Under the pieces are notes generated by a model, which was given only the letters and a program-made list of their open reading frames with translations, had not been told where the DNA came from and searched no databases. Positions 21,777 to 64,000 of a DNA stretch of 64,000 bases are shown here, in pieces. This stretch comes from Leptolyngbya sp. FACHB-261. Its GTDB lineage: Bacteria > Cyanobacteriota > Cyanobacteriia > FACHB-261. Where the stretch lies: assembly GCF_014696065.1 (NCBI RefSeq), contig NZ_JACJPL010000015.1:372001-436000 (forward strand). The letters run 5' to 3'. Each line of letters starts with the position of its first letter. The stretch's first letter is position 1. The translations under genes and the position numbers were made by a program.

Positions 21777-22475
21777 GGGACTCGTCCAGGGGGTAAAGGA
21801 TGGAGCCTGTTAGAGCCCTGCGGTGGCTTAGATACAGGCTCTTCGCTCAATATCTTTTAGATTAAAGACTAATCGGGAAGAACTAGAGAAGTTCAACGTC
21901 AGCCAAGAAGAAACTTGGAGCGTCCCTAAAAACACAGGCAACGACTATTAAGCCAGCACTGTGGCAAACGCTCACACTATAAAGTAGGGACGCATGTTGT
22001 GCGCCCCTACCCTACTCAAACTAGCGAGGCGCTATCAGCCCCTTACTAGGCTCACTCACTGAGAAGCGCGGGGAGAGCTACTGAGCTTCTTCTCACAAGT
22101 GCGCAGCCAGCGAAGAGAGGCCTGGAGGGAAGGCTGTTGCAAGAATTAGCTTGAGTAGATCTAAGAAATACCGGTTCAGATCCAGCAAACGCTTGAGCGA
22201 ATTCAAGCAATGCTTGTCCCAATCCAAGAAACGCTTACGTGAATTCACGAAACACTTCAGCCAAACTTATGAATGAATGCTCAGTGCCAAGGCAGGCTTA
22301 AGCAAATGCAAAGAAGACCTGGAGAAAAGCCTCCGAGTCTATCAGCATTCCTTTCCCTCTAATTGCTGTATCTTACGGAAAGGCTCCGCTATCCGTTTGG
22401 AGCCATCCGCTTGGAGCAAGATGTTGTTACTTAAGCCCTGCCATACAGTCTCGCCCCCTCCTGCCTATCTCCACT
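21777..22475. other. Long intergenic region upstream of glycosyltransferase and EamA genes
   Basis: About 700 bases without a convincing gene. It includes a cyanobacterial palindromic repeat (21984-22010) and, at 22140-22260, several degenerate copies of an AAGAAACGCTT/AAGCAATGCTT-like word near GAATTCA words. No open frame with a plausible protein. Confidence 0.4.
21984..22010. repeat. Cyanobacterial interspersed palindrome
   Basis: GTAGGGACGCA followed by a short loop and TGCGCCCCTAC forms an almost perfect hairpin of about 11 bases. GTAGGGGCGCA...TGCGCCCCTAC palindromes are dispersed in many cyanobacterial genomes. No transposase nearby. Confidence 0.65.
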
Positions 22476-22558
22476 AGGGCAGGATCATTGAAGGTTTTTG
22501 AGGTCTCTGAGTGGACCTCTGCTTTGAGTTGAACTCATGGACTAAGCCATCCTGCCCT
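22476..22558 (+). promoter_or_regulatory. Multibranched structured element before the EamA gene
   Basis: Ten-base perfect outer stem AGGGCAGGAT (22476-22485) with ATCCTGCCCT (22549-22558) closing a region with smaller hairpins: AGGTC with GACCT (around 22501-22518), GAGTT with AACTC (around 22525-22536) and ATGG with CCAT (around 22537-22550, competing with the outer stem). It ends 46 bases before the transporter start, as expected for a cis-acting leader RNA. It matches no riboswitch class I recognise; a small inverted-repeat mobile element is the alternative. Confidence 0.45.
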
Positions 22559-22604
22559 CACGCTCGCATGACCCGCTAACTTTGTGAGGCAAGGATAGGC
22601 TTTC

Positions 22605-23540
22605 ATGAAAACGCAAATTGAAGTCCAGGCGCAAGTGCGTCTGGGCCTACGGTTGATCGTGCTTGCTACCACTTTGTGGGGCACGGTCGGGGTGGTTGTC
22701 CAAGCAATTTACCAGTTGAGTGCAGCTAATCCCCTGTCGGTTGCCTTTTTCCGGTTGGCCCTTGCAGTACCCGTCTTGGCCCTGGTCTGCTGGCTCGTCC
22801 TGGGCCGAAGTATGTTCCAGATAGCTCGGCGGCATCTAATGCTGATGTTGCTAATCGGCATCATGATGGCGCTCTCCCAGTCCTGTTATTTTGCAGCGAT
22901 TGCTCAGATTGGGGTCGCGGCAGCAACGCTGATTACCCTCTGCACTGCGCCCGTCTGGGTCGCCCTGCTTGCGTCCGCCCTGCTACATGAGCGGTTATCG
23001 CGCGGTGTGCTTCTGACGGCAGGCCTAGCAGTTATCGGCACAGCTCTCTTAGTTGGAATCGAGCCTCAAGCCGTGACTGCACAAGCGAATCCGGCCCTCG
23101 GGGTACTACTCGCGCTCGGCTCAGGACTGACCTACGCCCTGGTCGTCCTGACTAGCCGGGCCTTGGCTGGGCGATATCATCCACTGCAATCGCTGACAGT
23201 GAGCATCGGTGTAGGGGCAGCGACTTTGCTGCTCTTCACGCTGGCGACCACTGGCTTGGTTATCCAGTATTCGCCTCTTGGCTGGACGCTCTTGCTGTAT
23301 TTGGGCCTGGTACCTACAGCCTTGGCTTACCTGCTGTATTTCAGTGGCATCTGCCATACGACAGCGACGGTTGCCAGCATTGCTGCCTTACTAGAGCCCT
23401 TAACGGCAACGCTGCTTGCCAGTTGGTTGCTAGGTGAGCAGTTGGGCTCGCTTGGGCTACTAGGATCTGTCCTATTACTGAGTGCGATTGGACTGCTGTA
23501 CCTGGAGAGTTGGCAGCGCGGGCAGCAAGATTCTGCCTAA
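22605..23540 (+). CDS. EamA-family (DMT) transporter
   Basis: 311 residues with about ten hydrophobic helices in two homologous halves, the layout of the drug/metabolite transporter superfamily. The first EamA repeat includes LATTLWGTVGVVVQAIYQLS and the second starts LGVLLALGSGLTYALVVLTSR. Probably exports an amino acid or other small metabolite across the inner membrane; substrate unknown. ATG at 22605 follows GGCAAGGATAGG. An intrinsic terminator follows at 23569. The structured element 46 bases upstream may control it. Confidence 0.88.
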   Translation: MKTQIEVQAQVRLGLRLIVLATTLWGTVGVVVQAIYQLSAANPLSVAFFRLALAVPVLALVCWLVLGRSMFQIARRHLMLMLLIGIMMALSQSCYFAAIAQIGVAAATLITLCTAPVWVALLASALLHERLSRGVLLTAGLAVIGTALLVGIEPQAVTAQANPALGVLLALGSGLTYALVVLTSRALAGRYHPLQSLTVSIGVGAATLLLFTLATTGLVIQYSPLGWTLLLYLGLVPTALAYLLYFSGICHTTATVASIAALLEPLTATLLASWLLGEQLGSLGLLGSVLLLSAIGLLYLESWQRGQQDSA

Positions 23541-23568: not shown

Positions 23569-23605
23569 GGGTAGAAAGGCAGTAGTTCGCTTTTCTACCC
23601 TTTTT
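23569..23605 (+). terminator. Intrinsic terminator of the EamA gene
   Basis: GGGTAGAAAGGC (23569-23580) pairs with GCTTTTCTACCC (23589-23600) with one mismatch or wobble, followed by TTTTT. It lies 29 bases after the stop of the transporter gene. Confidence 0.82.
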
Positions 23606-36953: not shown

Positions 36954-37150
36954 CGGCAGGCGGCTCAGGAAACTCTATCTCTTACTATTCTTACCCATGC
37001 CCCTCTAGCCAGGACCAAAGCTGTAACAAACCGATGTCACCAACCCGAAGCGACAGGAGCGGTAGGGCTAAGTTCCTCAAATCGGCTAACCGCTTTCCGG
37101 ATGGACTAAGCGTCTACAGAAGTAAGGGATGGTAGATGCACCCTGATTCA
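36954..37150 (+). other. Possible small RNA region upstream of a terminator
   Basis: No plausible plus-strand protein precedes the strong terminator at 37151-37187, yet this stretch folds: AGCGGT with ACCGCT (about 37059-37093) and GCGTCTAC with GTAGATGC (about 37110-37139, one wobble). CCCCTCTAG near 37000 could also pair with the CTAGGGG arm of the terminator, giving a long-range closing stem as in 6S-like RNAs. No family recognised; promoter unclear. Confidence 0.35.
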
Positions 37151-37187
37151 AATCCCCTAGCGCCCTCGGGTTCTAGGGGATTTTTTT
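37151..37187 (+). terminator. Strong intrinsic terminator with no gene before it
   Basis: AATCCCCTAG (37151-37160), twelve-base loop, CTAGGGGATT (37173-37182) and a run of seven T. The only plus-strand gene nearby starts after it (37399), so it should terminate an unannotated transcript. The rest of the gap, 37188-37398, holds nothing recognisable. Confidence 0.82.
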
Positions 37188-62503: not shown

Positions 62504-64000
62504 TTAAAAACATTTGCGGCTCAAGACAACCTGACCGTTGCTTAAGTGATAAGCGGCATCCGGCTCCTCGATTGGGTCGCCCACTTGCCAGGGCCGATTG
62601 TTGATTTCTAGGCTGTTATTAGAGGAGGGGACTGTGTAGGTTTCAAAGGTTGAGCTTGATAAGTCATTTGGAAGTACCGGTAGACCGCCTGCACCTGTCA
62701 CAGTGAATTGACCACTTTGCTGATCGCTATGGGCAATGCAGCTGTTGGCGAGCAGAGTGCTGGTGTCAATTAGATTAGCCGGTAGCTGCGTCAGGCTGTT
62801 TTGCAAAAAGTTGGTATCCGGTAAGAGAATGCTCCCAGAGGCAAGCCTACCTGCGGCGTTGATATCAACTCGGCCATTGCGGTCGAGTGTGAAAGGATCT
62901 GTGCCAGGAGGAGCGGGTTGATAGCGGAAGCCGAAGAAAGCGGAGGTGTTGAGGATAACGTTGCCGCCTCGACCACCTTGAGCAAGGGCCACAATATCAC
63001 TGTCATCGAAGGCCAAGATTGAGTCCGCATTTAGCGTAATATTGCCGCCACCGCCTGGGCCGCTGTTGACGAAGGTGGTGATGTTACTGTCATTTCTCAA
63101 GAGAATATCGCCAGCCGTTATGTCGATGTCGCCACCTTCGTCAACAGCGGCAGCTGTTGAGATGTTGCCGTTATTCATCTGTAGAATGTCGCGGGCGTTG
63201 ATCAAGATCTTGCCTGCGTTTCCCGCGCCAGAACTTCTGGCACTTAGGAAAGCTCGATCCATGACAGACACAGAGCTGGCAGTGATGCGGATGTTTCCGC
63301 CCGCTCCCACTCCGTCCGCTTCCACACTGCTACCAGCTGCACTCCTGCGTCCATTGCTGCCGACACCACTGAAACTCACTGCCCCTTCAGCGTCAATTAC
63401 GACACTGCCTGCTCTGCCTCTACCTCTGGTAACGGCACTTAGGAAGGCGCCATCCGTGACAGATGCAGAGCCAGCAGTGATGCGGATGTTTCCGCCCGCT
63501 CCCACTCCGCCCGCTTCCACGCTGCTGCCCGCTGCACTACTACGTCCATTGCTACCGACACCACTGAAACTCACTGGCCCTTCGGCATCAATCTCTACAT
63601 TCCCGGCTCTGCCTCTGCCTCTGGTAATGGCATTCAGTTGAGCCCCGTCTGTGACAGACACAGAGCCAGCAGTGATGCCGATGTCCCCTCCGACTCCGAC
63701 TCCGCCCACTTCCACATTGCTAAAGGCCCTCCCGTTATCAAATGTGACTGCCCCTTGAGCAGCAATTTCCACATTGCCAGCTTTGCCTCTGCCTCTGGTT
63801 CTGGCAGCCAGCACAGCTCCATCTGTGACAGCAACAGAGTCAGCAGTGATGCGGATGTCTCCTCCGACTCCGACTCCGCCCTCTTCCACACTGCTGAAGG
63901 CCCCACTAATGACCCCATTGCTGCCGACGCCACTGAAACTCACTGCCTCTTGAGCACCAATCACGACATTTCCTGCTCTGCCTCTACCTCGGGTAACGGC
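62504..64000 (-). CDS. Two-partner-secretion exoprotein (filamentous-hemagglutinin-like), 5' end beyond window
   Basis: The frame is open to the right edge; about 498 C-terminal residues are visible. They consist of beta-helix repeats rich in Gly/Val/Ala/Ser (GGNIRITAGSASVTDGAFLS; GRAGNVEIDAEGPVSFSGVG), then a Cys-containing tail and LSNGQVVLSRKCF, the usual end of cyanobacterial hemagglutinin-type exoproteins. It would be exported by a TpsB-type outer-membrane pore encoded elsewhere. The N-terminal secretion domain is outside the window. Confidence 0.86.
   Translation of the reverse strand, partial: AVTRGRGRAGNVVIGAQEAVSFSGVGSNGVISGAFSSVEEGGVGVGGDIRITADSVAVTDGAVLAARTRGRGKAGNVEIAAQGAVTFDNGRAFSNVEVGGVGVGGDIGITAGSVSVTDGAQLNAITRGRGRAGNVEIDAEGPVSFSGVGSNGRSSAAGSSVEAGGVGAGGNIRITAGSASVTDGAFLSAVTRGRGRAGSVVIDAEGAVSFSGVGSNGRRSAAGSSVEADGVGAGGNIRITASSVSVMDRAFLSARSSGAGNAGKILINARDILQMNNGNISTAAAVDEGGDIDITAGDILLRNDSNITTFVNSGPGGGGNITLNADSILAFDDSDIVALAQGGRGGNVILNTSAFFGFRYQPAPPGTDPFTLDRNGRVDINAAGRLASGSILLPDTNFLQNSLTQLPANLIDTSTLLANSCIAHSDQQSGQFTVTGAGGLPVLPNDLSSSTFETYTVPSSNNSLEINNRPWQVGDPIEEPDAAYHLSNGQVVLSRKCF
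63285..63848 (-). repeat. 195-bp tandem repeats in the exoprotein gene
   Basis: ATGCGGATGTTTCC-type unit starts recur at 63285, 63480 and 63675 (195 bases, 65 residues) and at 63849 after a unit shortened by 21 bases, seven residues. Units 63285 and 63480 are very similar at the DNA level, showing recent duplication or gene conversion. The repeated protein unit is one or more beta-helix turns ending in RGRGRAG. Confidence 0.75.

Follow-up and report, generated by a model that had tools for sequence, protein, structure and literature searches.

A polyproline leader peptide and a putative ribosome-operated attenuator upstream of EamA transporter genes in Cyanobacteriota, Desulfuromonadia and Chloroflexota

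The leaders of his, trp, leu and phe biosynthetic operons encode a peptide with several consecutive residues of one amino acid, and the alternative hairpins that come next act on transcription termination. In translational attenuators of the ermC/ermB type, a ribosome stalled on the leader shifts the pairing of the mRNA segments from 1:2/3:4 to 2:3, which frees the downstream Shine-Dalgarno (SD) sequence. An example of such a leader has been described for the translational attenuators of antibiotic resistance (PMC8274638). In Salmonella, the Mg2+ transporter genes mgtA and mgtCBR have the leaders mgtL and mgtP, short ORFs with conserved Pro codons whose slow translation, through low Pro-tRNA or loss of EF-P, favors the ON structure of the mRNA (PMC6460261, PMC5299641). 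Without the action of EF-P, ribosomes stall at three prolines in a row; in E. coli, the residue before PPP tunes the stalling, with R and H promoting it and T and C suppressing it (PMC4176338).

The locus analyzed here lies in a stretch of 64,000 nucleotides from Leptolyngbya sp. FACHB-261 (the window), in the leader of a gene for an EamA-family transporter. We consider it quite probable, from the comparisons and predictions given below, that this leader is a ribosome-mediated attenuator with a polyproline leader peptide, acting most likely on the translation initiation of EamA. It resembles mgtL and mgtP in having conserved Pro codons in a short leader ORF of a transporter gene. Unlike in mgtL, the prolines are consecutive rather than alternating, and the SD lies within the switch, whereas mgtL controls transcription elongation of the Mg2+ transporter gene. 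The target (EamA), the hosts (cyanobacteria, Desulfuromonadia and Chloroflexota) and the lack of a T run in most loci (45 of 53) also separate it from mgtL and mgtP. The proposed 1:2/3:4 to 2:3 switch that would free the SD, predicted here from sequence comparison and folding, is of the ermC/ermB kind, although no sequence relation was seen and the motif is PPP instead of a macrolide-dependent arrest motif. With the his, trp, leu and phe attenuators it shares a leader peptide with a single-residue run and subsequent alternative hairpins; however, the run has only two to five prolines, the gene encodes an EamA transporter and no attenuator model of Rfam matched. Guanidine (ykkC) and other transporter-linked riboswitches are also structured leaders before transporter genes, but here there was no Rfam match and a leader ORF under coding constraint is present. 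In the open-access literature, with most subscription journals and preprints outside the scope of the search, no leader peptide was described for an EamA gene, and a search combining Geobacter, leader peptide and attenuation matched other organisms only. The class of mechanism is known, while the family, the polyproline sensor, the target gene and the spread over three phyla appear to be new.

The starting point was an 83-nt element, which the original prediction had described as a multibranched leader RNA with a ten-base closing stem, ending 46 bases before the start codon of an EamA transporter gene. The perfect inverted repeat of AGGGCAGGAT (22476-22485) and ATCCTGCCCT (22549-22558) on the + strand does form a 10-bp closing stem, exactly 46 nt separate the end of the element from the ATG at 22605, and the EamA identity of the gene was confirmed by its match to PF00892 (Table 1). 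The original prediction had two or three internal hairpins; two were found on the - strand, whereas the + strand is not clearly multibranched, its MFE structure having a single long irregular arm. Compared with dinucleotide shuffles, the folding of the 83 nt gave z = -3.3 on the + strand (2 of 200 shuffles equally good) and z = -3.5 on the - strand (0 of 200). The element had no match in Rfam (4227 models, gathering score), and a lax Rfam search of 22300-22620 returned a single, implausible match. The sensor of the proposed switch, the leader peptide, lies just outside the 83-nt interval, as do the partners for the competing helices S1:S2 and S3:S4.

Table 1. Features of the leader and the EamA gene in the window.
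Feature	Position	Strand	Basis or remark
Likely Shine-Dalgarno of the leader ORF, GGAG	22413..22416	+	Read from the sequence; inference
Leader ORF, 18 aa, MLLLKPCHTVSPPPAYLH, followed by stop	22421..22477	+	Shared position, length and C-terminal Pro run; synonymous excess
Three Pro codons CCC CCT CCT, proposed stall site	22454..22462	+	Pro run of 2-5 in 53 loci
S1 (TCCTGCCT), within the leader ORF, partner of S2	22459..22466	+	Pairing and matched changes
S2 (AGGGCAGGAT), overlapping the leader stop codon; 5' arm of the closing stem	22476..22485	+	
S2-S3 spacer with weak internal hairpins; sequence and length not conserved in cyanobacteria	22486..22548	+	
S3 (ATCCTGCCCT), pairing with S2 (antisequestor) or S4 (sequestor)	22549..22558	+	To 22562 in the S4 pairing
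S4 (TGTGAGGCAAGGAT), containing the EamA Shine-Dalgarno AAGGA (22591-22595)	22583..22596	+	Pairs with ATCCTGCCCTCACG
EamA-family (DMT superfamily) transporter, 311 aa	22605..23540	+	PF00892, E 6.9e-33
Intrinsic-terminator-like hairpin 3' of EamA	23569..23600	+	

No further copy of the element was detected by DNA similarity in 96 related genomes, and relatives were therefore sought through the EamA protein, by a scan of GTDB contigs and whole-genome searches. The leader and the S1-S4 arrangement were found before genes of the same EamA subfamily at 53 non-redundant loci from Cyanobacteriota, Desulfuromonadia and Chloroflexota. The leader was present in all 10 cyanobacterial loci of the whole-genome search with at least 58% EamA identity, in 22 of 23 hits from Desulfuromonadia, in 13 of 14 from Ktedonobacteria and in 7 of 27 from Anaerolineae; 12 EamA homologues of lower identity (31-43%) lacked it. 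Upstream of the cyanobacterial orthologues (58-66% identity), different intervening DNA separates motifs of a common order, CCTGCC, GGGCAGGA, TCCTGCCC (some 40-60 nt upstream of the gene) and a purine-rich SD region, where the first motif lies inside a short ORF and the ORF ends at the second. The leader peptides, each ending at its stop codon, include MSLQNIFYCISPPSARIH, MFLHKIRYTVSPPPTYVR and MVLSKVFFAVSPPPTHI in cyanobacterial relatives, MYYPFSSILPPPSAILA, MYKPTFSILPPPPATLA, MFFQTPPPVSSLR and MFYQMTPPPPSCR in Desulfuromonadia, MALPLHITNPPPVAA and MPHLSLCILPPPAAA in Anaerolineae, and MVDRIFYSSYSILPPPVIATH and MIDRTVSYSHPFCSPPPFSTR in Ktedonobacteria.

Several individual loci showed further peculiarities. 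In one Desulfuromonadia genome (L152, and L122 at 524-577) the leader occurs twice together with about the first 90 codons of EamA; the near-identical copies are about 7 kb apart and one is apparently truncated. The second leader copy in L122 was considered as the leader of a different regulated gene, and this was rejected, as it belongs to the duplicated leader and start of the same EamA gene. Upstream of EamA in L145, comparison with L150 and L151 suggests that S3 and S4 are separated by an inserted, foreign-looking stretch, and no leader was called there within 300 nt. In loci of the Geobacter type (L048, L075, L077 and L081), promoter elements resembling TTGACA...TATATA immediately precede the leader ATG, suggesting a possible start of the leader mRNA directly at the AUG or close to it.

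The leader peptides at the 53 loci are 13-24 aa long and have a run of two to five prolines shortly before the stop codon; in the window this codon overlaps the first arm (S2) of the closing stem. Since the loci were selected by a PP-containing leader, the presence of Pro runs in 53 of 53 is partly a result of the selection, and the fractions of all hits given above are the fair measure. Among single-nucleotide codon differences, the synonymous fraction was 0.75 in 14 Geobacter-type leaders, 0.62 in 5 short Desulfuromonadia leaders and 0.52 in 6 cyanobacterial leaders, with an expectation of 0.26-0.28. These comparisons argue that the leader evolves as a coding sequence under constraint at the protein level. 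All four Pro codons are used in the PP runs (52 CCT, 51 CCC, 37 CCA and 25 CCG), pointing to conservation of proline itself and not of its codon. The run has three prolines in 39 loci, four in 7, two in 5 and five in 2, its end lies 2-8 residues before the stop, and in 34 of the 53 loci it is directly followed by A or V. The leaders of Desulfuromonadia and Ktedonobacteria share the core SILPPP[AVSP]. Just three short ORFs of the window carry PPP close to their C-terminal end, and the one at 22421-22477 has by far the strongest downstream complement to its stop region.

The four segments S1 (leader end), S2 (at the stop codon), S3 and S4 (SD region of EamA, which S4 overlaps in nearly every locus) can pair as 1:2, 2:3 and 3:4, giving two exclusive states: S1:S2 with S3:S4, in which the SD of EamA is paired, and S2:S3, in which S3 is held away from the SD. 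Over the 53 loci, helices between segments of the same locus were stronger than those after permutation, and the observed value was reached in 1 of 5000 permutations for S1:S2 and in 0 of 5000 for both S2:S3 and S3:S4, whereas the control pairings S1:S3 (305/5000) and S2:S4 (908/5000) remained at the permuted level; these permutations carry no correction for kinship. Within clades, the own-locus effect was strongest for S2:S3 and S3:S4 in both Desulfuromonadia groups. In the larger of these groups the S1:S2 effect was weak, own-locus pairing being no better than cross-locus pairing.

Matched changes were found in all three helices. For S1:S2, CCTGCCC/GGGCAGG changes to CCTACCC/GGGTAGG, and in L031, L038 and L039 CCTGCC/GGCAGG is replaced by CCTACC/GGTAGG. 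The matched variants are AGGGCAGGAT/ATCCTGCCCT, AGGCAGGACG/CGTCCTGCCT, TGAGGAAGGA/TCCTTCCTCA and AGGGCAAGC/GCTTGCCCT for S2:S3, and CCTTGA/TCAAGG, CCTGTCCGT/ACGGATAGG and CCGAATG/CATTCGG for S3:S4. When the 14 Geobacter-type leaders were aligned, 11 cells of S2:S3 were changed on both sides with the pairing kept (0 of 500 shuffles), and 91.7% of the cells were paired, compared with 25-54% for slid controls. The covariation of S2:S3 was modest in the cyanobacterial alignment, as the helix is nearly invariant there and hence less informative. In the MAFFT alignment S4 was misaligned in some rows. Compensatory changes before EamA genes of relatives, the check proposed with the original prediction, are thus present, and its reading as a regulatory leader RNA is supported, whereas the evidence does not favor an aptamer-type riboswitch or a protein-binding element, the two forms it had suggested. 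We also observed that the S2-S3 interior in columns 89-126 of the Geobacter-type alignment A3 is conserved (TTCGC ... GCGTT ... CACTAGAGTTGCGCC) to a greater extent than the switch requires, and may hold a second input or structure in these relatives.

In the mechanism we propose, S3 would pair with the SD and keep the transporter off when the leader is read to its stop codon or is left untranslated. A ribosome stalled at the prolines would cover S1 and leave S2 free about 15-24 nt ahead; the free S2 would then capture S3, and the SD of EamA would be freed. Given these two states, the trigger would be something that slows peptide-bond formation at PPP; candidates are a proline analogue, a compound that binds the ribosome and is exported by the transporter, and low levels of Pro-tRNA or of EF-P activity. 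We modelled the folding with the P site occupied by the last Pro codon and the mRNA covered by the ribosome to about +15. In this ribosome-block folding, the mean probability of S2:S3 was 0.92 for a stall at PPP and 0.02 when the ribosome had reached the stop codon. The distance from the first nucleotide of the P-site Pro codon to the beginning of S2 is 11-30 nt (mean 18.8), which mostly places S2 just past the edge of the modelled ribosome, and in the model the stall site is thus positioned so that the ribosome would mask S1 but not S2.

For the window, the MFE structures of the free RNA and of the RNA with the ribosome at the stop have S3 on the SD, and that of the stalled RNA has S2:S3, as predicted, which makes the closing stem the proposed ON-state helix. 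The closing stem is, in our interpretation, the antisequestor helix of a ribosome-operated attenuator and not a stand-alone riboswitch. The accessibility of the SD at equilibrium was higher in the stalled state than at the stop in 34 of 43 loci, but the average gain was small (mean 0.17 to 0.26) and that of the window was almost nil (0.20 to 0.22). If the model is right, the switch would therefore depend on kinetics, on the co-transcriptional order of folding, on competition with ribosomes or on other structure.

The residue before PPP is L, S, T, N or A, and never R or H, at the 53 loci, which suggests that stalling on these leaders is conditional and not constant. A broader reading, which we advance tentatively and would not ourselves favor, takes the leader for a widespread peptide with the motif SILPPP[AVSP] that arrests ribosomes conditionally, senses a small molecule or the EF-P/prolyl-tRNA state and switches on a transporter for the arrest-causing molecule. 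If true, it would be a cross-phylum pair of sensor and transporter without an earlier description. More generally, the leader adds a conserved peptide-controlled switch to lineages where few such leaders seem to have been described, and it may serve as a natural reporter for polyproline stalling and as a handle on this EamA subfamily, as the cause of the PPP stall is probably connected with the substrate of the transporter.

The same leader and segments could also act on transcription, with S3:S4 as an intrinsic terminator like those in classical attenuators of amino-acid operons. At least six T in 8 nt are found just before the start codon, past the S3:S4 helix, in 8 of the 53 loci, all of them cyanobacterial; however, this T run is missing in the other 45, including the window, and S4 lies on the SD region nearly everywhere. 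We therefore regard control by termination as an unlikely explanation overall, possible in the eight cyanobacterial loci with the T run and unlikely elsewhere. A ligand-binding riboswitch with S2:S3 as its P1 stem would account for the P1-like stem with internal structure, the significant folding and the downstream transporter gene, but the absence of an Rfam match counts against it and the protein-constrained leader ORF would be left unexplained. In addition, the variable length and sequence of the interior in the cyanobacterial relatives speak against a conserved junction for ligand binding, and we consider a riboswitch very improbable.

Two explanations at the DNA level take up the perfection of the inverted repeat. 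To an operator, with GGGCAGG half-sites bound by a transcription factor, we give hardly any credence, because the distance between S2 and S3 is widely variable among cyanobacteria, the repeat differs by clade (GGCAGG, GAGGAAGG, GGGCAAG) with its partners matched, and S3 is complementary to the SD as well. A small mobile inverted-repeat element (MITE), which the original prediction had named as the main rival, is likewise suggested by a short element with perfect inverted repeats at its borders. The genome was searched for the unlinked multiple copies expected of such an element; there were none, the element being single in its own 6.9-Mb genome, and no target-site duplication was seen. Moreover, in distant genomes the orthologous genes are preceded by the same arrangement, with a similar spacing to the start codon, and the mobile element, to which we assign next to no probability, was rejected.

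As for the gene downstream, the terminator-like hairpin after EamA suggests that it is probably monocistronic. The EamA/DMT protein has a distant, weak resemblance to YddG, the model of this aromatic amino acid exporter (NF050091) giving 39.5 bits, below the curated cut-off of 300. The genes neighboring the EamA loci included none that was conserved and gave no hint of the substrate, and no plasmid with a close EamA relative was found.

Some other observations were made in the window. Upstream of the leader, the region 22120-22300 contains imperfect repeats of the type AAACGCTTGAGCGAATTCAAGCAA, with a palindrome around 22235-22252. At 63239-63903 there are tandem arrays whose periods are 195 and 174 bases, with 83% matches. 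The sole Rfam match in the window is NsiR1 (nitrogen stress-induced RNA 1, RF02399), located away from the element at 37130-37187 on the + strand with 61.5 bits.
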